From contig OX031071.1 in NCBI GenBank assembly GCA_943736015.1, forward strand, positions 10,202,119 through 10,266,118: a stretch of DNA of 64,000 nt, in the 5' to 3' direction. Below the pieces are notes generated by a model. It was given only the letters and a program-made list of their open reading frames with translations. It had not been told where the DNA came from and searched no databases. The position numbers and the translations under genes are program-made. Source of the stretch: Tridacna crocea (taxonomy: Eukaryota; Mollusca; Bivalvia; Cardiida; Cardiidae). This document shows positions 25,284 through 63,639 of this stretch, piece by piece (position 1 is the first letter of the stretch; the number at the start of each line of letters is the position of its first letter).

Positions 25284-26830
25284 TTTTAGCTCACCTGAGC
25301 ACAACGTGCTCAAGGGGAGCTTTTAGGGTCACTGGGTGTCCGTCGTCCGTCTTGCGTCGTCAACAATTCTTTAAACATCAAATCCTCCTAAACCGCTGGG
25401 CCAATTTGGACCAAACTTGGCAGGAATGTTCCTTGGGAGGTCCTCTTTAAAAATTGTTCACAGATTTTGATTCCGTCAAAAACTCTGGTTGCCATGGCAA
25501 CCAAATGGAATTTTTTAGCAAATTCTTTAAAAATCTTCTCCTCTGAAACTGCTGGCTGGATTTTGAAATTATTTCACAGATATGTTCCTTGGGTGACCCT
25601 TTTGAAAAATTGTCCGTGAAATTTTGATCCGTCAAAAATTGTGGCTCTGGTGAATGGGGGCTTCTTGCACTATACAGAAATCAAGGAATTCCTTACAAAC
25701 CTTCTCCTCTGAAACCGCTGGTTGGATTTTGAAATAATTTCACAGATATGTTCCTTGGGTGACCCATTTCAAAAGTTGTTCGTGAAATTTTGATCCGTCA
25801 AAAATTGTGGCTCTGGTGAATGGGGGCTACTTGCACTATACAGAAATGAAGGAATTCTTAAAAAATCTTCTTCTCTGAAACCGCTAGTCAGATTTTGATA
25901 TAATTTCACAGAAATGTTCCTTGGGTGACTCTTTTCAAAAATTGTTCGCGAAATTTTGATTGGTCAAGAAACATGGCTCTAGTGAATAGGGGCTACTTGC
26001 ACTATAGTGAAATGAGGAAATTCTTAAAAATTTTTCTTCTCTGAAACCGCTGGTCAGATTTTGAAATAATTTCACAGAAATGTTCCTTGGGTGACCCTTT
26101 TCAAAATTTGTTCGTGAAATTTTGATTGGTCAAGAAACATGGCTCTGGTGAATGGGGGCAACTTGCACTATAGGGAAATGAGGAAATTCTTAAAAAATTT
26201 TTCTTCTCTGAAACCGCTGGTCAGATTTTGAAATTATTTCTCAGGGATGTTCCTTGGGTGACCCTTTTCAAACAGTGTGTGCGAAATTTAGATTGGTCAA
26301 GAAACATGGCTCTGGTGAATGGGGGCTACTTGCACTATATGGAAATGAAGAAATTCTTGAAAATTCTTCTTCTCTGAAACCCCTAGTCAGATTTTAAAAT
26401 AATTTGACAGAGATGTTCCTTGGGTGATCCTTGCTCTTGTGAATAGGGGCTACTTGCGCTATATGGACATGATGAAATTCTTGAAAATTCTCTTTCTCTG
26501 AAACCCCTGGTCACATTTTAAAAGAAATTTTCCGAAATGTTCCTTGGGTGACCCTTTTCAAAACTTGTTCGTAAATTTTGATCCATCAAGAAACATGGCT
26601 CTCGTGGATGGGGGATACTTGCTCTTACACAGAAATGAAGAATTTTTAGAAATTCTTCTTTTTGAAACTGATGGTCAGATTTCGAAATTAATTTTACAGG
26701 TGACCTTTTGAAAATTGCTTAGCAAAATTATAAATTTGGTTCCAATGTTTCAATACCTCAAAAAAAAATGGGCTATGGTCATCTCAAAAATTCAGGTGAG
26801 CAATCCAGGGCCATTTTGGCCCTCTTGTTT
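25284..26830 (+). mobile_element. HINE-A copy 6 (best full-length copy)
   Basis: About 1.55 kb. Head TTTTAGCTCACCTGAGCAC with stem-loop GAGCACAACGTGCTC; unique block with CCGTCGTCCGTC, GGGCCAATTTGGACC and GGTTGCCATGGCAACC; about seven 166-bp units; 3' region; tail TTCAGGTGAGCAATCC, hairpin GGGCCATTTTGGCCC, CTCTTGTT. The head start AGCTCACCTGA and the subterminal TCAGGTGAGC are inverted repeats, the asymmetric-TIR layout of Helentron-type elements. No protein coded; mobility would depend on a helicase supplied elsewhere. Confidence 0.92.
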
Positions 26831-27894: not shown

Positions 27895-28123
27895 TTAACT
27901 CTTTACCACACGATCCTTACTTTTAACAACCCTCAGAAAGAAGCCGTTAGAAAACATTGTGGGAAAAGGAGAGAATACTGGTTACCAGCATTTTCTTCTT
28001 TTCCCACAATGTTTTCTATCCTTCTCGATACAGATTTTAAATTTTCAGTCCCTTTTATCATGTTGTCAGCAAATGCTTTAAACTTGGACCTGTCCAAAAA
28101 TTTGTCGTTTGGTAAAGGGTTAA
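27895..28123 (+). mobile_element. TH-A MITE (three-copy chain, 1)
   Basis: Full; last TTAA (28120-28123) shared with the next. Confidence 0.9.
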
Positions 28124-32464: not shown

Positions 32465-32732
32465 TATAGTTGCACCAGTCTAAAGTTTTGTTGTTTGATA
32501 AAGAGTGAACTCTACAAAACGGCAAAATTTTGAACTTGTCCAAATATAAAGCATTTTCAGATGACAAAAGAAATGTGAATCAAAAATTGAATTTGATTTT
32601 GGGAGGGTAGAAAACATTGTGGGAAAAGGAGAAAATGCTGGTTACCAGCATTTTCTCCTTTTCCCACAGTGTTTTCAAAAGGCTTTCTTTCTCAGGGGCG
32701 TCAAAAGTAGGGATTGTATGGTAAAGGGTTAA
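32465..32732 (-). mobile_element. TH-A MITE next to the PKI exon (plus a + end fragment)
   Basis: 32465-32505 is a + right-end fragment. 32505-32732 is a nearly full minus copy with a perfect hairpin, ending GTAAAGGGTTAA. Its last base is 44 bases upstream of the PKI exon. Confidence 0.85.
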
Positions 32733-32776
32733 TACACACGACCCTCAATCAAGATTCATTTAAAATCTCTTTTCAG

Positions 32777-32957
32777 TCTGATCAGCGGTCAGCAACTAGT
32801 ACGCCAGCCCCGATGGATGAGGGAATGTCACTGGAGGAGTTCATCGCCTCTGGTAGAACAGGAAGAAGAAATGCCATGCCAGATATTTTAGACTCACATA
32901 AGGCTGGAGTTGGGACAGGGCAGTTGTCTTTTGACATGGAAAAACTCAACTGCTCAG
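32777..32957 (+). CDS. PKI exon A (pseudosubstrate and export-signal exon)
   Basis: The acceptor is a pyrimidine tract ending TCTTTTCAG at 32776 and the donor is CAG|GTACAG after 32957. The exon begins in phase 0; its first 36 bases are either 5'UTR or upstream coding, and the ATG is at 32813. A TH-A MITE ends only 44 bases upstream of the exon. A longer open frame starting at 32714 runs through that MITE and past the donor, and is not the real protein. Confidence 0.88.
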
Positions 32958-34631
32958 GTACAGTAGACAATTTTGTTGTCAGGTTGATATTAAGCTTATG
33001 TCATGAAATAGCATTTGAAACAAAATATTATTAACCCTATACCACCCAATCCAGACGTTTATGACACTGGGAAAGAAAACTTTTGAAAGCATAGTGGAAA
33101 AAGGAGAAAATGCTGGTGACCAGCATTTTCTCCTTTTCACACAATGTTTTCAACCCTTTCTAAATAAAATTTTTCAATTTTTGATTCACATTTATTTTGT
33201 CATCTGCAAATGATTTCAATTTCGACAAGTCCAAAATTTTTTTGTTTGGTAGAGTTAAACAAGGAAAAATATCATTAAGCAAGCTTTCAAATATTGTTTG
33301 TTGACAAGTTTCATATAATTTTACATCAAAACCCAACATAATGCTTACATTTACATGTGTATTCATCCAAATTTACTTGAAGCCTGTTTACATCTTTGAT
33401 GGGTACATTACAGACAAAAAATAGTTCAAATATAATTCACAGTACATTGGTTTGTTTTGAATCTAAAGGTGAAAAGAGTTTTTCAAAGAAACCCTAGTCA
33501 ACAATATGTTAGAAATGAGGGGTATGATTGTAGTGTTTTGACGAAATACATGTATGGCACTACTTGCTTGTAACAGATACGTGTAAGCTATGAAAATTAC
33601 TCACGACTGATTCAGACGGAAAACAAGGGTAGTTATATGACAAGAAATTTTAGATTGACTATTTTCCACGCAAATCCAGTTTTAACAACTCCGAAATGGA
33701 AAGCCTTTGAAACATTTGGAAAAAGAGAAAATGCTGATAACCAGCATTTTCTCCTTATCCAACAATGTTTTCTATCTGATTAAGAATAGCTTTCACAATT
33801 TTTGCCACATTTAATCTGGCGCCTGTAGATGCTTTGAGTTTGGTCAGGTCTAAAATTGTCGTGTTGAAGGGTTTACTTTATCTGAAGGGAAATCTTACAA
33901 GAAGGACAGGTAATGATGAAAATATTTTTGACAGTTTTGCCCCTTTTCTACAGTGAATTTTCCGGGCCTGTATTCACGAATCATTCTTAAGAAGGTTCTT
34001 TGTCATATTCTCCACAATATTCTAAATTTGAGAGTAACTCAACTCCAGATTGGCTAAACCATTGTGTTTAGCCAATCAGGAGTTGTGTTACTTTCAAAGT
34101 TAGAAAATCTTGGAGAATAACCTTGAGAATAACCTCGGGAATAGTTGATGAATACCGGCCCAGGTTGCTGCAGCTGTAAGTAGGCACGGACATGTGTTGC
34201 TCTTGTTCATTATCGCCCACTAGATGGCATTCTACAAGTACTCATCTAATTTGGGCATCCTGGGTACAGAACTGGACTACTTTTCTATGCAACAACTGTT
34301 ACTTTGAATTTCAAACTAAAATAAATGTTTACTCAATAAAACGCTACCTGGTGCAATTTATTCAACTGTGATCAGCAGTTTAGAGAAATCTGGAGCTAAA
34401 ACAGGCCTGATTTTTTCTCAAACATATTGATAAAAGCCATTGCTACTTTATAGGACGTATTACTACAATCTCCCCAATGTCGCGGAGAGTGATGTGTCAT
34501 ATAAGACTGGTTGAACTTTGAAGAATATGACACGCGCAGACAATGTGCTCTTTTTTATTATTGCAGATAGCAATCAAGCACAGCCTTCCCAGCAGACCTC
34601 ACCCACTCCATCAACTAGTCAAGGTTCCTAG
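32813..34631 (+). CDS. cAMP-dependent protein kinase inhibitor (PKI family), two coding exons
   Basis: Joined coding sequence 32813-32957 plus 34567-34631 gives 69 residues; vertebrate PKI proteins are about 76. PKI binds the PKA catalytic subunit as a pseudosubstrate and carries it out of the nucleus. Residues 10-26 read FIASGRTGRRNAMPDIL. Phe10, Arg15, Arg18, Arg19 and pseudophosphorylation Ala21 fall at the same numbers as in mature PKI-alpha, which supports the start at 32813. Residues 38-47 (LSFDMEKLNC) align position for position with the PKI export signal LALKLAGLDI. The tail is Ser/Gln/Pro-rich with no domain, as in PKI. The donor CAG|GTACAG and acceptor TTGCAG join in phase 1 (GAT, Asp49), and TAG closes at 34629. 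The Kozak context is weak (C at -3, G at +4), so Met5 is an alternative start. The exon is open for 12 codons upstream of Met1, so an N-terminal extension from an earlier exon cannot be excluded. No other host gene is visible. Confidence 0.9.
33031..33258 (+). mobile_element. TH-A MITE in the PKI intron
   Basis: TTAACCCTATACCACCCAAT left; hairpin GGTGACC centre; right end TTTGGTAGAGTTAA. Begins 74 bases downstream of the exon A donor. Confidence 0.85.
33656..33876 (+). mobile_element. TH-A, diverged, in the PKI intron
   Basis: TTTTCCACGCAAATCCAGTT left, hairpin GCTGATAACCAGCATTTTC, right end GTGTTGAAGGGTTTAC. Confidence 0.65.
33963..34163. mobile_element. PAL-H palindromic MITE, copy 2, in the PKI intron
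   Basis: CGGGCCTGTATTCACGAATC and the inverse ATGAATACCGGCCC; centre GATTGGCTAAACC ... GTTTAGCCAATC, with a CCAAT motif in each arm. Confidence 0.82.
34217..34228 (+). promoter_or_regulatory. candidate CTCF-type binding motif
   Basis: CCACTAGATGGC matches the bilaterian CTCF core CCASYAGRKGGC at every position. It lies in the unique part of the PKI intron, 338 bases upstream of the last exon. A 12-base match can occur by chance, so this is only a candidate. Confidence 0.35.
34567..34631 (+). CDS. PKI terminal coding exon
   Basis: It follows a TTATTGCAG acceptor and encodes the 21-residue tail starting at Asp49 (after DSNQAQ, rich in Ser, Gln, Thr and Pro), then TAG at 34629-34631. The frame continues exon A exactly in phase 1, which is the main evidence that the two belong together. 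Confidence 0.85.
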
Positions 34632-35296
34632 CACTTAACAGTATTCATTTTGTGATTCTTGATCATATCATGTGATGTGTCATGTAACTTGTCATTTCTG
34701 GCTTGGACAATTCAGAATGAGGCTACAGTGTCTGATTGAATGCAGTGAAAAAACTGGTGTGTTCAGTGTTAAAGTTTGTGCTTTGTTTGAGTTAGATTTT
34801 TCTAGACATTAGAAGTTGGATTGTTTTAAAGATTGTGTTGTAACTAAGTGAGCCATGCTGTGTGAAGAGGATTTAATTTATCTTCAAAAGGTATCTACCC
34901 AGGTCAGTCTTCACAGGCTGGCCTGGATCTAAACCTTTTTTTATGTGGTATATTTTATGCATGTCGAAGGACAGTTCCATCTCACGTGCCAGTTGAGTGT
35001 TAGACAAAATGGATTATATGAGTCCATAGTTACCACATTTCTCAAAATAAAAGTTCCCTCCCTAGTTATAGCCCTCCTGTCTTGAAAAAACCCTTATCTT
35101 GTCAACCTGATGTATGTTAGTTAACTCATTACCAAGCGACAATATTTTGGGCTTGTCCAAATGGAAAGCATTTGCAGACGACTTAAAATTTGAAATTTGT
35201 TTTATGAAGGATAGAAACCTCTTAACAATATCTAAAACACAAAGAAATACTAGATGAGACATACTTTTTGCTTTGCAAATTTTGTATAAAATAAAG
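34632..35296 (+). terminator. PKI 3'UTR with candidate poly(A) signals
   Basis: The sequence after the stop has no repeat for about 250 bases. Canonical AATAAA occurs at 35046-35051 and again at 35290-35295. If the first is used, the 3'UTR is about 430 bases. If the second is used, it includes a TH-A fragment (35121-35215). Bases 34895-35040 resemble the dispersed repeat J seen at 60830-60960. Confidence 0.45.
35121..35215 (-). mobile_element. TH-A left half, possibly within the PKI 3'UTR
   Basis: TTAACTCATTACCAAGCGAC to GTTTTATGAAGGATAGAAAC; stops at the hairpin start. Confidence 0.75.
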
Positions 35297-35371
35297 ACTC
35301 CCTAGCCATGTTTTGCATTGCTCCTGGGAGCTCTTATTAGGAGAAATATGGTATGTGATGAGATGTTTGGT

Positions 35372-35594
35372 ATAACCCATTACCACACAATCCCTACTTT
35401 TGACGCCCCCTGAGAAAGAAGCCTTTTGAAAACACTGTAGGAAAAGGAGAAAATGCTGGTAACCAGCATTTTCCCACAGTGTTTTCTACCCTCCCCAGAA
35501 CAAATTTCAAATTTTTCAGTCACCTTTATTTTGTCGTCTGCAAATGCTTTCAATTTGAACCGTTCTAAAATTTTGTCGTTTGGTAATGAGATAA
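35372..35594 (+). mobile_element. TH-A MITE flanked by ATAA on both sides
   Basis: Near-consensus interior with part of the second hairpin arm missing (CAGCATTTTCCCACAGTG). Both flanks are ATAA (35372-35375, 35591-35594) instead of TTAA. Confidence 0.85.
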
Positions 35595-35807
35595 TCCACT
35601 ATGGAGATGCGTTTTGACCCCTCTTTGCTATAGCATGGCCGGAGAAAGTTTGGTTGGAAGATTTTCAGACATCTCAAGACATTCCACTTAGTGGAGTTTG
35701 ATCATGCTTGTAGTGGCGGACTGGAAAACAAGTTGTTTATTTTTTTGAGACGCTAGTCAAGTAACTTTTATTTTCTTAGGTTCAGCAAGTTTCACAGAAG
35801 TAATTTG

Positions 35808-36243
35808 ACTCTCTGTCAAAAAATTGGTGTCAACGGAATTGAAAGTATTTGCAGATGACAATTAAAATGTGGCTGGAATTATGATATTTGGGTTCTTATT
35901 CACCAATCATTCTTGAGAACATTCTTCAATTTATCTTCCAGAATTTTCATCTTTTGAATGCAAACATCTTCTAATTGGCTAAACCATTTCATTTGGTTTA
36001 GCCAATCAGAAAATGTGTTTTATTCAAATTCAGAAACCATCGGACAATTAAACAAAGACTGTTCTTAAGGATGGTTTGCCAATAAGGGCCTTGGTTGTGA
36101 AAGAATAGAAAAGAATAGAAAACATTGTGGGAAAAGGAAAAAATGCTGGTTAACAGCATTTTCTCCTTTTCTCACTATGTTTTCAAAAGGCTTCTTCATT
36201 TGGGTCATGAAAAGTTGAGATTGTGTCATAGAGGGATTAGAGA
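35808..36243 (-). mobile_element. TH-A split by PAL-H
   Basis: Left part 35808-35891, right part 36091-36243 (hairpin and the decayed end GTCATAGAGGGATTAG). Between them is PAL-H copy 3. Confidence 0.7.
35892..36090. mobile_element. PAL-H palindromic MITE, copy 3
   Basis: GTTCTTATTCACCAATCATT and the inverse GGTTTGCCAATAAGGGCC. Flanked by TTGG at 35888-35891 and 36091-36094, a candidate 4-bp duplication. Centre GGCTAAACCATTTCATTTGG. Confidence 0.78.
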
Positions 36244-36463
36244 AGAACATGTGATGTGATATGTACATAGATAGATTTGTGTCGGCATTACCTGTGATTT
36301 TGAATTAGCACTTCATGAATGCTGTGTATATATTGAATACCTGTATAGCTTACAATTTCCAAATCTTTTAGAGATCTCAGACACTCTGTATCCATAGACC
36401 TGTATATACATGTAGATGTATGGACATGATTGTTTGACCCTAGAGTCATCTTTTTTTTCCCTC

Positions 36464-38067
36464 TTTTTAGCTCACCTGAGCACAGCATGCTCAAGCGGGG
36501 GCTTTAAGGATCACCAGGTGTCCGTCGTCCATCGTGCGTCATCAACAATTTTCTGAACATTTACTCTCCTAAACCACTGGGCCAATTTGGACCAAACTTG
36601 GCTGGAATGTTCCTTGGAAGGTCCTCTTTTAAGTTGTTCAAATGGTTTGATCCCATCAAACACTCTGGTTGCTATGGCTACCAAATTGAATTTTTTAAGA
36701 AATGCTTAAAAAAAATCTTCTCTGAAACTGCTGGTCACATTTTGTAAAACATGTAATTTTACAGAAATGCTCCTTGGGTGACCCTTTTCAATTTTTTTTC
36801 CACGAAATTTTCGTCCATCAAGAAACATGGCTATGGTGAATTTGGGCTACTTGCACTGTATGGAAATGAAGAATTACTTAAAATTTCTTCTTCTATGAAA
36901 GGGCTGGTCAGATTTCTCAATAATTTTACAGAGATGTTTCTTGGGAGACCCTTTTCAAAAGCTGTTCGTGAAATTTTGATCCGTTGAGAAGCATGGCTCT
37001 GGTTCCTGGGGACTACTTACACTATACATATATGAACATAATCTTAATTTTTTTCTATTCTGAAATGGCTGGTCAGACTTTGAAATAATTTCACAGAAAT
37101 GTTCCTTTGGTGACCCTTGTCAAAAACTGTTGGCGAAATTTTGATCCCTCAAGAAACATGGCTCTGTAAAATGGGGGCTACTTGCACTATGTAGCCACGA
37201 AGAATTTCTTAAAAATACTTCTTCTCTGGAACTGTACAGATGCTCCTTCAGTGACCCTTTACAAAAACTGTTCGCAAAGTTTTGATCCGTCAAGAAGGAT
37301 GACTCTGGTAACTGGGGGTACTTGCACTGTATGGCCATGAAGAAGTTCTTAAAAATTCTTCTTTTGTGAAACAGCTGGTCAGATTTTGAATTAACTTCAC
37401 AGAAATGTTCCTCTGGTGACCCTTTTCAAAAATTGTTTGCAAAATGCTGATTCTTCAAGAGACATAGCTCTGATTAGGGAGGGCGCACTTGCAATTGTTC
37501 TCTGAAACGAATGATCAGATTTTGAAATCATTTCACAGGAATGTTTCTTGGGTGACCCTTTTTGCAATTTTCCGAGAAATTTTGATCCCACAAGAAACAT
37601 GGCTCTTATCACTGTGGGCTATTTACACTATATGGACATGAAGAAATTTATGAAAATTCTGTTACTCTGAAATGCCTGGTCAGATTTTGAAACAATTTCA
37701 CAGCAATGTTCCTAAGGTGACTCTCAGAAATTGTAGGGAAATCTTTATCTATCATACTTGCATGTGGTACTCTTTTTCGACTAATGTTTTTAGTCACTAT
37801 CGAGCATGTGATCTTCCTCAAGAAATTGTCCTAGGATGATCTATCCAAAAATTTCTTTGCAGAATTCAGATTCATGAAAATCATTACTGTGGTGATGATT
37901 GGTGGTGTAGCGACAGATTTTGAAATGACTTTTACAGGTGACCTTTATAAAGTTTGCTTGGCAAAATAATGATTTTATTTCCAAAGTTTCATTACCTTAC
38001 AAAAAATGGCTGTGATCCTCTCAAAAATTCAGGTGAGAGATCCAGGGCCATCTTGACCCTCTTGTTT
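36464..38067 (+). mobile_element. HINE-A copy 8
   Basis: Head TTTTTAGCTCACCTGAGCAC with stem-loop GAGCACAGCATGCTC; about seven units; 3' region; tail TTCAGGTGAGAGATCCAGGG, hairpin, CCCTCTTGTT. Confidence 0.9.
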
Positions 38068-38218
38068 CTTTTTGAAAAACTGGAGGCGTGGCAGATCATG
38101 TTATCTCTAAATACTGATTTCTTTGTAAACGTGCCTGTGTACATGTACATAAAGCATTTTTTCCATCCTTAAGTCAGAATCTGCAACCATGTAATCTAAA
38201 AAATCTACAGCTTTTAAT

Positions 38219-38262
38219 TAACTTTTACCACACAGTCTTAAGTTTTAACAACCCTGAGGAAA
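38219..38262 (+). mobile_element. TH-A left-end fragment
   Basis: TTAACTTTTACCACACAGTC to AACAACCCTGAGGAAA, then HINE-A units. Confidence 0.6.
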
Positions 38263-38269
38263 TACATGT

Positions 38270-39035
38270 AAATTAAAAATTCTTCTTCTCAGAAACTGAT
38301 GGTCAGATTTTGAAATATTTCACAGAAATTTCCTTGTGTGACTCTTTTCGATAATTGTTCGCAAAATTTTGATTCATCAAGAAATATGGCTGTGGTGAAT
38401 GGGGGATGCTTGCACTGTACAGAAATGAAGAAATTCCTAAAATTATTCTTCTCTGCTGAAACCGCTGATCAGAAGTTGAAATATTTTCACAGAGATGAGC
38501 CTTGGCTGGTCCTTTTCAGCAATTGTTTGCTAAGTTTTGATCCTTCAAGAAACATGGCTCTGGTGAGTGGGGGCTACTTGCACTGTACGGAAATAAAGAA
38601 ATTCTTGAAAGTTCATGTTTCTGAAATGGCTGGTCAGATTTTGAAATAATGTAATAGAGATTTCCCTTGGGTAATTCTTTTCAAAAACTTTTGCAAATTT
38701 TGATCCATCAAGAAACATGGCTCTGGTGAATGGGGGCTACTTGCACTATATGGAATCAAGAAATTCTTGGAAATTCTTCTCGTCTGGAATGGCTTGTCAG
38801 ATTTCGAAATAATTTCACAAAGATGTTTCTTGGGTGACCCTTTTTAAAAACTCTTTCAAAATTTTGATCTGTCAAGAAATATGGCTGTGGTGAATGGGGG
38901 CACCTTGCACTATACAGAAATGAAGGAATTCTTAAAAATTCTTCACCTCTAAACCACTGGCCAAATTTCAAAATAATTTCACAGAAATGTTCCTTGGATG
39001 ACCCTTTTCAAAAACCGTTTGTGAAATTTTGATCT
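38270..39035 (+). mobile_element. HINE-A copy 9 (internal units only)
   Basis: About five 166-bp units without head or tail. Confidence 0.8.
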
Positions 39036-45834: not shown

Positions 45835-48009
45835 CCCATTACCACACAATCACTACTTTTGACGACCCTGAAAAAGAAGCCCTTAGAAAACATAGTGGGA
45901 AAAGGGGAAAATGCTGGTAACCAGCATTTTCTCCTTTTCCCACAATGTTTTCTACCCTTCACAAAAAAAAATTCAAATTTTCAGTCACTTTTATTAGCTC
46001 ACCTGAAAATGAAGTGCTCATGGTGAGCTTTTGTGATCGTCCAATGTCCTGCGTCTGGCGTGCGTCGTCCACAATTTATTTAAATATCTTCTCCTCCTAA
46101 ACCACTGGGCCAATCTTGATGAAACTTGGCAGGGATGTTTCTTGGGTGAAGCTCTACCAAAGTTGTTCAAGACATTGAATTCCATCCATAACTCTGCTTG
46201 CCATGGCAACCAAAAGGAAAAAAAATAGCAAAATCTTTGAAAATCTTCTTCTCTGAAACTAGAAGGCGTAGAGCTTTGAAATTTGATATGTAAAATCTCC
46301 TGGTGGACCTCTACCAAGATTGTTCATATGATGACCCTGGGGTCAAAACTGGCTCGGCCCCAGGGGTCACAATTTTGAACATAGGAACAAAGATGGAAAA
46401 CTTTAAAATTCTTTTTCTCTGCAACTAGAAAGTACAGAGCTTTGATATTTGGTATGTAGCATCTCATAGTGGACTACTACCAAGATTTTTCATATGATGT
46501 CCCTGGGGTTAAAACTGGCCAAGCCCAAGGGGTCACAAGTTTGAAACATAGGAACAATGTTGGAAAACTTTAAAATTCTTCTTCTCTGAAACTAGAAAGT
46601 GCAGAGCTTTGATATGTGGTATGTAGCATCTACTAGTGGGCTACTATCAAGATTGTTTACATGATGACCCTAGGGTCAAAACTGGCACGGTCCCGTGGGT
46701 CACAAGTTTGAAACATAGGAACAAAGAAGGAAAAATTTTAAATTTCTTATTCTCTGAAACTAGAAAGTGCAGAGCTTTGATATTTGGTATGTAGCATCTC
46801 CTAGTGGACTACTACCAGGATTGTTCATATGATGTCCCTGGGGTCAAAACTGGCCCAGCCCCGGGGGTCACAAGTTTGAAACATAGGAACACAGAAGGAA
46901 AACTTTATAATTCTACTTCTCTAATACTATAAGGTGTAGAGCTTTGACATTTTGTAAGAAGCATCTCCTAGTGGACCTCTCTAAAGATTGTTCATATTAT
47001 ATCCCTGGAGTCAAAACTGGCCTCGCCGCGGGGGTCACAAGTTTAAAACATAGAAATAAAGAAGGAAAACTTTAAAATTCTTCTTCTCTGAAACTAGAAG
47101 GTGCAGGTTTTTGATATTTGGTATATAGCATCTCCTAGTAAATCTCTACCAAGTTTGTTCATATGATGCCCCTAGGGTCAAAACTGGTCCCTACCCGGGG
47201 GTCACAAGTTTGAAACATAGGAACAAAGAAGAAAACTTTAAAATTCTTCTTTTCTGAAACTAGAAGGTGCAGAGCTTTGGTATTTGGTATGTAGCATCTC
47301 CTAGTAAACCTCTACCAAGATTGTTTATATGATGCCTTTGGGGTCAAAACTTGTCCCACCCTAGGGGTCACAATTTTCGAAACATAAGAACAAAGAAGGA
47401 AATCTTTAAAATTCTTCTGCTCTGAAACTAGAAGGTGTAGAGCTTTGATATTTGGTATGTAGCTTCTCCCAGTAGACCTCTACCAATATTGTTCATATGA
47501 CGTCCCTGGGGTCAAAACTGGCCCCGCCCCGAGGGTCACAAGTTTAAATTAGAAATAAAGAAGGAAAACTTTAAAATTCTTCTTCTCTGAAACTAGAAGA
47601 TGTAGAGCTTTGATACTTGGTATGTTGCATCTCTTAGTGGACTTCTACAAAGTTTCTTCATACGATGCCCCTGGGGTCAAAACTTGCCCTGCCCCAGGGG
47701 TCACAAGTTTGAAACATAGGAACAAAGAAGGAAAACTTTATAATTCTACTTTTCTGAAACTATAAGGTGTAGAGCTTTGATATTTTGTAAGAACATCTCC
47801 TAGTGGACCTCTACCAAGTTTTTTCTTAGGATGCCCCTGGGGTCAAAACTGGCCCCGCCCCAGGGGTCACAAGTTCGATTTTACAGAATGGTGATTATTA
47901 TGATTAGTACTCAGGTGAGCGATATAGCACCATCATGGTCATCTTGTTTTGTCTGCAAATGCTTTCAAATCGGACAAGCCAAAAATTTTGTTGTTTGGTA
48001 ATAAGTTAA
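45831..48009 (+). mobile_element. TH-A split by HINE-B copy 3
   Basis: Left part 45831-45993, complete hairpin; right part 47949-48009 (GTCTGCAAATGCTTTCAAAT to GGTAATAAGTTAA). Confidence 0.85.
45994..47948 (+). mobile_element. HINE-B copy 3 (longest B copy)
   Basis: Head TTAGCTCACCTGAAAATGAA; GTCCTGCGTCTGGCGTGCG; GATGAAACTTGGCAGGGATG; GCCATGGCAACC; about ten B units; tail ACTCAGGTGAGCGATATAGC with hairpin ACCATCATGGT and CATCTTGT. The units carry a conserved GC core GGCCCCGCCCC-type string amid AT-rich sequence. Confidence 0.92.
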
Positions 48010-49235: not shown

Positions 49236-49440
49236 TTAACTCTTTAGCACACAATCCTGACTTTTAACGACGCTGAGAAAGAAAGCCTTTGAAAACCATT
49301 GTAGGAAAAGGAGAAAATGTCGGTAACCAGCAGTTTCTCCTTTTCCCACAATGTTTTATACCCTTTCCAAATGAAATTTTAAATTTTTGAGTTACATTTA
49401 TTTTGTAGTCTGCAAATACTTACAATTTAGACTAGTCTTT
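49236..49440 (+). mobile_element. TH-A lacking its right end
   Basis: TTAACTCTTTAGCACACAAT, hairpin, to ATTTAGACTAGTC, then SAT86 sequence. Confidence 0.78.
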
Positions 49441-49978
49441 CATATATGTTTGGACCATGTAACCAATAGATAAACAGACCAAGTACTCAATAGTATTCTG
49501 GATGAAACAGAAGGCAGACAAGACTTACATGTATTTTGGACCCTGTAACTAATAGATCAATGGACCAAATACTCAACAGTATCCTGGAGAGAACGTAATG
49601 TAGATAAGACATTCAAGATACATACCCATGTATGTTTGGACCCAGTAACCAATAAATCAACAAAGTACTCAGTGCAACATCCAAGATAAATACCGATGTT
49701 TGTTTTGGGCCCTGTACCCAGTAAATAAACAGACAAGTACTCGACAATATTCTGGATAGTACAACATCCAAGATAAATACCAATGTTTGTTTGGATCCAG
49801 TATTCATAAAATAAATGCACAAGTACTCGACAATATTCTGGACAGTAAAACATCCAAGATAAATACCGAGGTTTGTTTGGACCCTGTACCCATTAAATAA
49901 ACAGACAAGTACTCGACAATATTCTGGACAGTACAACATCCAAGATAAATACCGATGTCTGTTTGGATCCAGTATTCA

Positions 49979-50196
49979 TTAACCCATTACCAAAAGACAA
50001 AATTTTAGGTTTGTCAAAATTGAAAGGAATTGCAGACGACAAAATAAAAGCGACTGAAAATTTGAAATTTGTTTTGTGAAGGGTAGAAAACATTGTGGGA
50101 AAAGGAGAAAATGCTGGTTACCAGCATTTTCTCCTTTTCCCACAATGTTTTCTAAAGTCTTCTTTCAAAAGTAGGGATTATGTGGTAATGGGTTAA
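49979..50196 (-). mobile_element. TH-A in SAT86, copy 1
   Basis: Full copy, flanks CCAGTATTCA and ATAAATGCACAAGTACTC. Shares a deletion after TCTTCTTTC with copy 2. Confidence 0.9.
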
Positions 50197-50451
50197 ATAA
50201 ATGCACAAGTACTCAAAGAATTTTCTGGACAGTGCAACAGCCAAGATAAATACCGATGTTTGTTTGGACCCTGTAACCATTAGATAAACAGACAAGTAGT
50301 CAAAAATATTCTGGGCGGTACAACATCCAAGATAAATACCGAGGTTTGTTTGGACTCTGTAACCATTAGATAAACAGACAAGTAGTCAACAATATTCTGG
50401 GCGGTACAACAGCCAAGATAAATACCAATGATTGTTTGGATCCAGTATACA

Positions 50452-50670
50452 TTAACCCATTACCAAACGACAAAATTTTAGGTTTGTCAAAATTGAAAGG
50501 AATTGCAGACGACAAAATAAAAGCGACTGAAAATTTGAAATTTGTTTTGTGAAGGGTAGAAAACATTGTGGGAAAAGGAGAAAATGCTGGTTACCAGCAT
50601 TTTCTCCTTTTCCCACAATGTTTTCTAAAGTCTTCTTTCAAAAGTAGGGATTATGTGGTAATGGGTTAAA
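50452..50670 (-). mobile_element. TH-A in SAT86, copy 2
   Basis: Almost identical to copy 1 including the deletion; same flanks. Confidence 0.9.
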
Positions 50671-51011
50671 TAAATGCACAAGTACTCAAAGAATTTTCTG
50701 GACAGTGCAACATCCAAGATAAATACCGATGTTTGTTTGGACCCTGTAACCATTAGATAAACAGACAAGTAGTCAAAAATATTCTGGGCGGTACAACATC
50801 CAAGATAAATACCGAGGTTTGTTTGGACTCTGTAACCATTAGATAAACAGACAAGTACTCTAAGAATTTTCTGGACAGTGCAACATCCAGGATAAATACC
50901 GAGGTTTGTTTGGACCCTGTAACCATTAGATAAACAGACAAGTAGTCAAAAATATTCTGGGCGGTACAACATCCAAGATAAATACCAATGATTGTTTGGA
51001 TCCAGTATACA

Positions 51012-51245
51012 TTAACCCATTACCAAACGACAAAATTTTAGGTTTGTCAAAATTGAAAGGAATTGCAGATGACAAAATAAAAATAAAAGTGACTGAAAAT
51101 TTGAAATTTGTTTTGTGAAGGGTAGAAAACATTGTGGGAAAAGGAGAAAATGCTGGTTACCAGCATTTCTCCTTTTCCCACAATGTTTTCTAAAGGCTTC
51201 TTTCTCAGGGGCGTCAAAAGTAGGGATTATGTGGTAATGGGTTAA
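51012..51245 (-). mobile_element. TH-A in SAT86, copy 3
   Basis: Same insertion site. Retains the TCTCAGGGGCG stretch deleted in copies 1-2 and carries an extra AAAATA in the left arm. Confidence 0.9.
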
Positions 51246-51394
51246 ATAAATGCACAAGTACTCAAAGAATATTCTGGACAGTGCAACATCCAAGATAAAT
51301 ACCGATGTTTGTTTGGACCCTGTAACCATTAGATAAATAGACAAGTAGTCAAAAATAATCTGGACAGTATAAAATCCAAGATAAGTACCGATGT

Positions 51395-52092
51395 CTGTTT
51401 GAACCTGTGACCCCCGGGGCGGGGCCAGCTTTGACCCAAGGGGCATCATAGGAACAATCTTGGTGGAGATTCACTAGGAGATGCTTCACACCAAATATCA
51501 AAGCTCTGCACCACCTTCTAGTTTCAGAGAAGAGGAATTTTAAAGTTTTCCTTCTTTGTTCCTATGTTTCAAACTTGTGACCCCCGGGGCAGGGGCAGTT
51601 TTGATCCCAGGGTCATCATATGAACAATCTTGGTAGAGGTCGACTAGGAGATGCTACATGCCAAATATCAAAGCTCTATTTTTAGTTTCAGAGAAGAAGA
51701 ATTTTAAAGTTTTCCTTGTTTGTTCCTATGTTTCAAACTTGTGACCCCCGGGGCGCGGCCAGTTTTGACTCAATGGGCTTCATATGAATATACTGGTAAA
51801 GGTCCACTAGGAGATGCTACATACCAAATATCAAAGCTCTATGTCTTCTAGTTTCAGAGAAGATTTTTAAAGATTTTGCTATTTTTTTCCTTTATGAGTT
51901 ATGGGTGAAATTCAATCTCTTCAACAAGTTTGGTAGAACTTCACCCAAGGAACATCCCTGCCAAGTTTCAGCAAGATTGGCCCAGTGGTTTAGGAGGAGA
52001 AATTGTTGACGACGCACGACGCACAACAGACGCCGGACATTGGGCAATCACAAAAGCTTACCATGTGCACTTCGTGCTCAGGTGAGCTAAAA
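51395..52092 (-). mobile_element. HINE-B copy 4 (tail lost)
   Basis: Minus strand: head ends GAGCACGAAGTGCAC next to CAGGTGAGCTAAAA at 52078-52092, then the unique block and about three B units. Interrupts SAT86. Confidence 0.88.
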
Positions 52093-53379: not shown

Positions 53380-54190
53380 AAATGTATTTTAACATTGTAT
53401 AAGAGAATTAAGTTTATGCTGCACAGCTACAACTAAATTGTTGTCTGCTGATGTTTTAATTAAGTCAAGTTTAAATTTTTTCGTTTCCTAGAATTAATTG
53501 ATGTATGTCTATATGTTTTCATTGTGTATACTATGATGATATTGTTGTTTTGTGGTGCATTATGGGCCGGAGGCTTAAGTATTCAAATTTCCTATCTGTC
53601 TTGTTTTTTCACTATCCTTTGAAAAATGCCTTATGATAGTATTGAGAGAGGGGAGAAAACATGGGTAACCATCGTTTTTTGTTTTGTTTTTTCTTTTCAC
53701 ACTATGTTTTCTATCGTTTTATTTAGACAAGTACAATCATTGCAATTATGAACAACTAAATTGTCGTCTGCAAGTGCTTTTAATTTGGTCAAGTCTACAT
53801 TTTGTTGTTTGTTAAATTTAACATATATGTGTGTATATATTTTCACTCTGTACATTATGATGTTAACTTAGTACTTTGTCTTGTTTTTTTACTATCCTTT
53901 GAAAAATGCCTTATGATAGTATTGAGAGAGGGGTGAAAACATGGGTAACCATCGTTTTTTGTTTTGTTTTTTCTTTTCACACACTGTTTTCTATCGTTTT
54001 ATTTAGACAAGTTCAATCATTGCAATTATGAACAACTAAATTGTCGTCTGCAAGTGCTTTTAATTTGGTCAAGTCTACATTTTGTTGTTTGTTAAATTTA
54101 ACATATATGTGTGTATATATCTTCACTCTGTACATTATGATGTTAACTTAGTACTTTGTAGTATTATGGGCCGGAGGCCTAAATACCTGA
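53380..54190 (+). repeat. 280-bp tandem duplication of a TH-A derivative, with a non-LTR-like tail
   Basis: GAAAAATGCCTTATGATAGT at 53621 and 53901; the two units are nearly identical over more than 200 bases. Each holds a remodelled hairpin MITE (GGGTAACCATCG). The block ends ATTATGGGCCGGAGGCCTAA then AATAAATTGTCTGTTCTGTT, like a LINE/SINE 3' end with a short tandem tail; the same phrase lies at 53560-53590. Confidence 0.65.
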
Positions 54191-61976: not shown

Positions 61977-62139
61977 AAAGTGCAAAAATCATGGACATTA
62001 AGAAACATATCAAGAAACTAATAATCAGAAATCATATGAAATACTGTTATAATTCACAATTAGACATAAATCATGGACAATGATATAACAATCTGGAGAT
62101 AAGCATACTCAATTTATGCGCAATTATATAACAATGGCA

Positions 62140-62300
62140 GATATGGCATGCAACACGCCAATAGGGGCTTTTGGACATTTGCGTACACTGTCATCTCCGA
62201 TCAGTTTCGGTTTAGCCTGTGTGGACTGCACAGGCTTACCCCAAATGATACTTTATGCAAATGTCAAATTACACCTTTTTGCATGTTAATAGCCACAGAA
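62140..62300. repeat. Repeat J copy 2
   Basis: GGCATGCAACACGCCAATAG, GGACATTTGCGTACACTGTC, GGACTGCACAGGCTTACCCC, TTATGCAAATGTCAAATTAC, TTTTTGCATGTTAATAGCC: inverted ends around an inner inverted repeat (AGCCTGTGTGGACTGCACAGGCT). Confidence 0.65.
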
Positions 62301-63639
62301 ACAAAATATCAGACAACCATATAACAAATCAGAGATTATGGACAACAAAATCCATATAACTTACTGCAGAAATAGAGCTAGACTCTTCCAGCAAACAAAT
62401 TTTAGACCATCAAAAATGAAATTATTTTTCGGATAAACATCCTATATTAGCAGTATCTATTTCATTTAACTAACTGTTCAGAGAGAGTTTTCAATAAATG
62501 CAAGAATTCATTTTTAGAATGATGTAGTAACTTTCCTATTACTTGTATCTGCTTCGCACAATGTAATTTAACATCTTGCTTGAACTTTGGTCTCACACTG
62601 TTAAAATTTTTTTTAATGGCTCAAAGCAAGCACAAGCATCAGGAAAGACACAACATAATATTTCTTTAATGAAACTGTGACTCTTTACAATATAACAAAT
62701 TTTTTTTCCCTTTAATTTTTATACTACAGTAAAACCTTTGTAGTTTAGAGCCCAATGGACTGAAATTTTTATACAAACAATAGTTTGTTAAAAAAGTGTG
62801 TCTGTGTTTGGCTATTTACAGTGCTGTATACACAAACAGACAATTGGATTTACACAGCATGTCTTGCAGTACACTCCTTTTACGGCTTTGGTTCCATAGA
62901 TAATCTAAGCTTTTTTCCCTGCCAAATCCAATATGGATTTATTGAGAGTAGCTGCCAGTAAGCAAAAACATAGTAACCTACACTTTGACTACTAGCAATT
63001 TTACCATAAAACATCATTAAAGCCTATCAAATAGCGCAATTCAAAAATTCTGTTGTGGGGTTCCTCCAGACCATCCTAGCTAGCCATGCCCCTGACTGAT
63101 CATTTTTATAAAATGTACCTTATCAATCCATTTCAATACTATTTTTAGAATATATCAGTTATTGTTAGAAAAATTACATCTTTTTACACAACCAAATTAT
63201 TTTTAGATATGCCACTTACAATTTGACATACTACTTACCTGTTGACATTTGAATTATTCTAGGCAAAATCACGAACTACTTCTGATGACTTAAAAGAGCA
63301 ACAGCTGAGAGATACATGATAGTCTCCCTTTGCTCATGAAAATGTTTTTCAAAAAATTAGCAGTTGCTTGTTATATACCAATTTTTCCTTTCTCCATAAT
63401 GTTTGAAAAAGTTGTAAAATGTTTGGTTTTAAGAAGCTGTACAAAGGTATAACCATCTTAACACTTCTGGTGCAACATGGAATGAAATTTCGTATTAGTT
63501 GATAAAAGATTTATACTGATATAATATTTTAGCACATTTCCAACCAACCAGAAATTCCTTGGATGTCCATCTTGAAATTATTTGTTGATATATTTGTTAG
63601 TTTTCAGAAAGGGGAGATCAATATTATCTCCCTTTGTAA
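62301..63639. other. no gene or assigned repeat
   Basis: AT-rich, with one phrase CTACAGTAAAACCTTTGTAG at about 62725 that is self-complementary. No exon or repeat family recognised. Confidence 0.4.

Follow-up and report, generated by a model that had tools for sequence, protein, structure and literature searches.

A compact gene of the PKI family of protein kinase A inhibitors, with two predicted coding exons, in a repeat-filled stretch of DNA

A phenylalanine is known to play a role in the high-affinity N-terminal segment of the cAMP-dependent protein kinase inhibitors (PKI). The excerpted text of PMC7234811 assigns residues 1–14 of PKI to this high-affinity segment, residues 15–22 to the pseudosubstrate and residues 37–46 to a nuclear export signal, the rest being a disordered tail. 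The family has been described beyond vertebrates: a homology table, taken from an excerpt of PMC10838073, records the coral protein pdam_00011290 (70 aa) as homologous to PKI alpha, beta and gamma of humans. As this coral homologue is already published, the occurrence of PKI outside vertebrates is not new. A literature search by title returned no dedicated invertebrate PKI study among the matches listed, and an excerpt of another paper (PMC2724707) deals with a PKI peptide as a drug, with no bearing on native PKI.

Here we describe a locus in a stretch of 64 kb of DNA, the whole of which is referred to as the window. The first-pass annotation of this stretch had proposed two exons that join in phase to encode 69 residues followed by a TAG stop codon, and this structure is borne out by our analysis (Table 1). 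Exons 1 and 2 together comprise 246 nt in frame, with zero internal stop codons and the terminal TAG at 34629–34631, and all splice dinucleotides are canonical. The product predicted from the ATG at 32813 includes FIASGRTGRRNA, and exon 2 encodes a tail rich in S, Q, P and T. A second in-frame ATG is located at 32825. The acceptor TCTCTTTTCAG precedes position 32777 and the acceptor TTTTTTATTATTGCAG precedes position 34567, both after pyrimidine-rich stretches. The donor following position 32957 reads CAG/GTACAG (the slash marks the exon border); compared with the donor consensus GTRAGT, its positions +4 to +6 (CAG) are off consensus, and the site is weaker there. The GC content amounts to 0.49 in exon 1 and 0.51 in the coding piece of exon 2, versus 0.36 for the window.

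Table 1. Predicted features of the PKI locus and of the flanking element pair (positions refer to the window).
Feature	Position	Strand	Remarks
227-nt element copy, left arm	32508..32734	+	42 nt before exon 1
PKI exon 1	32777..32957	+	181 nt; acceptor and donor canonical, frame open; probably the last 36 nt of the 5' UTR, then codons 1–48
Start codon ATG, most likely	32813..32815	+	MDEGMSLEEF...; N-terminus of PKI length
High-affinity Phe and pseudosubstrate, FIASGRTGRRNA	32840..32875	+	residues 10–21; alignment to 3wyg_D, 1cmk_I and 1apm_I
Candidate nuclear export signal, LSFDMEKLNC	32924..32953	+	residues 38–47; aligned to LALKLAGLDI of PKI-alpha
Intron, predicted	32958..34566	+	1609 nt, phase 1, repeats inside
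227-nt element inverted copy, right arm	33029..33256	-	71 nt after exon 1
PKI exon 2	34567..34631	+	65 nt; remainder of codon 49, codons 50–69, TAG
3' UTR, predicted, as is its end	34632..35070	+	AATAAA at 35046, inside the repeat-free block 34166–35103

Membership of the predicted protein in the PKI family had been proposed together with a protein search as a check, and is confirmed by matches in both Pfam and the PDB. The spliced protein matches the Pfam family PKI (PF02827) with an E-value of 4.1e-16 and a score of 59.5 bits, the cut-off being 25, and covers profile positions 6–66 of 69. The best phmmer match in the PDB is PKI-alpha (3wyg_D, E 5.3e-06, aligned residues 7–63), from an entry that we take to be a CRM1 complex, and the next matches are the PKI inhibitor peptides 1cmk_I and 1apm_I. 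A six-frame search of the window for the shorter motif R.GRRN[AS] gave one hit, and 200 Markov-simulated windows combined also gave one. The PKI match is not due to chance, and nothing was found against membership in PF02827. An open reading frame (ORF) opposite exon 1 (32785–33000, minus strand) displays no Pfam match at E-values up to 1. A match of the PKI protein to HoxA13_N (E 0.024–0.034) lies below the cut-off of that family and was rejected.

Comparison with PKI-alpha (PKIA; 3wyg_D, 1cmk_I, 1apm_I) displays identity in 12 of 12 residues of the inhibitory core, GRTGRRNA included. The key residues are Phe10, the arginines R15, R18 and R19, and Ala21, which stands in the phospho-acceptor position; the eleven residues from Phe10 to Ala21 equal the spacing in PKI-alpha. 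In both proteins DIL follows two residues after the core, the spacing to the export signal is equal, and the lengths are similar (69 residues here, 76 in PKI-alpha). On the other hand, position P+1 is Met here and Ile in PKI-alpha, followed by Pro here and His in PKI-alpha, and residue 7 is Leu here and Tyr in PKI-alpha. The S/Q/P/T-rich tail has little similarity to its counterpart. The candidate export signal, which ends on Cys, also differs in sequence; its five hydrophobic positions are nevertheless occupied by L, F, M, L and C, as compared with L, L, L, L and I in PKI-alpha, and by this measure the export-signal pattern is kept. Cys is a weak terminal residue in an export signal, and because the last position is Cys here instead of the Ile of PKI-alpha, export could be weak. 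The coral protein pdam_00011290, compared here by its description in the excerpt only, is likewise of non-vertebrate origin and of nearly the same length (70 versus 69 aa).

Judged from sequence, counterparts of all PKI regions named in the excerpt of PMC7234811 appear to be present in the 69-residue protein. This may suggest a mechanism of action modelled on PKI-alpha. Most of the protein would be disordered. The segment at its N-terminus, which contains Phe10 and GRTGRRNAM, would fill the substrate groove of the free catalytic subunit of protein kinase A (PKA) as a pseudosubstrate, with Ala21 in the place of the Ser or Thr that is phosphorylated in a substrate. LSFDMEKLNC would then recruit CRM1/RanGTP, such that the kinase would be carried out of the nucleus. 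Expression, binding, inhibition and export are all what homology to PKI-alpha would predict.

The choice of the second exon merits separate consideration. We surveyed acceptors in the region 33010–39000, defined as an in-phase AG with at least 10 pyrimidines in the 16 bases before it and a resulting tail of 12–45 residues. Forty acceptors fit this definition, 11 of which, including the proposed one, have at least 12 pyrimidines; Pfam PKI scores were obtained for these 11. The proposed join reaches 59.5 bits, versus 50.3–53.7 bits for the ten alternative joins, which supports the assignment of exon 2. Without exon 2 the score is lower, at 52.0 bits for exon 1 by itself and 51.7 bits for a frame running on into the intron. 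Three other in-phase acceptors exceed the proposed one in pyrimidine content, and when the ORF of exon 2 (34515–34628) was scanned separately, Pfam gave no PKI match. Part of the gain in score of the proposed join may be due to the S/Q/P/T-rich composition of the tail.

The PKI gene had also been regarded as the only gene supportable in the 64 kb, which agrees with our Pfam scans of ORFs (stop to stop, at least 38 codons). These scans (E up to 0.01) covered all 211 of the 211 low-repeat ORFs, in two scans of 149 and 62, the second of which also took in 84 of the 603 repetitive ORFs; PKI was found in one ORF. About 1.5 such Pfam matches per scan are expected by chance, and besides PKI one was seen in the first scan and four in the second. 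We take these as chance matches, each in one ORF: Pacifastin_I (E 0.0049) in the first scan, and zf-CHY (0.004), SASRP1 (0.008), PLL (0.0081) and QueT (0.0096) in the second. In the window, ARAGORN predicted no tRNA, and Rfam gave no match at gathering score. No repeat-free block in the window is longer than that at 61989–63638 (1650 nt), where the Pfam search of ORFs of at least 38 codons gave nothing credited; exons that escaped recognition, or regulatory DNA, may be present in it.

A further claim, namely that the gene lies in a repeat desert, does not hold if few repeats are meant. A self-comparison (E<1e-5) shows 70.2% of the window to recur elsewhere within it, and the window contains 51 tandem-repeat rows. 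The expression fits only in the sense of a gene-poor, repeat-filled stretch, in which the PKI gene is an island: exon 1 is located inside the repeat-free block 32744–33017, and exon 2 and the likely 3' UTR share the block given in Table 1. Tandem repeat families with units of about 163–168 nt form many separate arrays in both orientations between 9297 and 63998 (e.g. 46231–47875 and 25521–26432). The tandem repeats of the window presumably resemble repeats of marine molluscs. An 86-nt tandem repeat at 49429–51412 is partly nested in a 473-nt higher-order unit (49722–50928, 2.6 copies, 92% matches). In addition, a 280-nt unit is present twice in tandem at 53597–54159 (97% matches), probably as the result of a recent duplication.

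In searches for relatives beyond the window, viral contigs yielded 12 pattern stretches and bacterial and archaeal genome contigs 144, with none confirmed in either set. An exact DNA pattern derived from the 167-nt tandem repeat matched no viral contig.

Among the dispersed repeats, an element of about 227 nt recurs 48 times in the 64 kb, counting copies no shorter than 120 nt and including two opposed copies that flank exon 1 (Table 1). Both flanking copies contain the palindromic core GGAGAAAATGCTGGTnACCAGCATTTTCTCC, and one end of the element reads GGGTTAA; in tandem copies near 28107 the sequence is GGGTTAACCC. In appearance the element resembles a small transposon with inverted repeats and target sites of TTAA. 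The two arms around exon 1 (227–228 nt) are 83% complementary over 230 aligned positions. In a predicted RNA fold they form a long stem that encloses exon 1 (-322 kcal/mol, z -15.5, 20 shuffles), a z-score that only restates the complementarity of the arms, because the shuffles do not keep repeats.

One conceivable addition to the PKI gene reading, which we consider quite improbable, is that this inverted pair folds the pre-mRNA around exon 1 and gives rise to circular RNA or to skipping of exon 1. The length and complementarity of the arms, their proximity to the splice sites and the fold itself speak for such a hairpin, and according to an excerpt of PMC8516420, backsplicing is favoured when the flanking introns carry complementary repeats. 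The same excerpt, however, states that many such circular RNAs are suggested to be splicing by-products. Among 47308 random 181-nt placements outside elements, only 125 (0.26%) are flanked on both sides by opposed copies at most 80 nt away, and about 46 of these 125 fall in exon 1's own gap by hand count. The arrangement was noticed after the fact, though; with the limit set at 500 nt, 2961 of the 47308 placements (6.3%) are flanked in this way. Moreover, of the 31 neighbouring element pairs spaced by less than 600 nt, 17 are in opposed orientation. Each element is also a near-palindrome and may fold locally, and the left arm lies only putatively in transcribed DNA. Given the density of this repeat, an accident is the likely explanation, and the inverted pair around exon 1 is probably due to chance. 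That the hairpin sets the amount of PKI by circularisation or skipping of exon 1, and hence constitutes a transposable-element switch on PKA tone, we regard as very unlikely. If true, the exon affected would be the one with the start codon, the PKA-inhibiting core and the export signal.

A second question concerns the N-terminus. The acceptor site at the start of exon 1 implies an upstream exon, and the first-pass annotation had considered that the coding sequence may extend into it; neither the first transcribed exon nor the promoter was located. A coding extension is possible but needless: counted from the ATG at 32813, the phenylalanine is residue 10, versus residue 11 of the PKI-alpha chain 3wyg_D in the alignment, so that translation from this ATG suffices for an N-terminus as long as that of a PKI. 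No Met is encoded in the 12 codons of exon 1 ahead of this ATG, and the upstream exon is probably noncoding 5' UTR. A more far-reaching variant would have the PKI core as an inhibitory segment of a larger protein with more upstream exons, and not as a small stand-alone PKI. The frame is indeed open across the 36 nt preceding the ATG and on up to 32711, such that an in-frame join to an upstream coding exon is possible; yet an open run of 12 codons is often to be expected by chance (a hand calculation for equal base use gives about 0.56), a PKI-length N-terminus is obtained from the first ATG, and no further domain was credited among the scanned ORFs. From this predicted start, the length of 69 residues compares with about 70–76 for small stand-alone PKI proteins. 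A larger protein appears most unlikely to us.

It is likewise highly improbable that the locus is a PKI pseudogene or silent copy, i.e. an intact-looking duplicate that has lost its expression: the repeat-rich surroundings, with repeats at distances of 42 and 71 nt from exon 1, might point that way, but the retained intron argues against a processed copy, no damage is seen in the reading frame or its stop codon, the splice dinucleotides, the inhibitory residues or the spacing of the export signal, and the 64-kb window holds a single PKI copy.

Based on the intact reading frame, the family match, the conserved inhibitory residues and the kept spacing of the export signal, we consider it very likely that the locus is a functional animal PKI gene. 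It adds one clear gene structure to the PKI family and leaves the view of the family unchanged. If the animal is an invertebrate, as we presume, the finding would fit with an ancient origin of PKA control by PKI in animals, as the coral homologue already implied.
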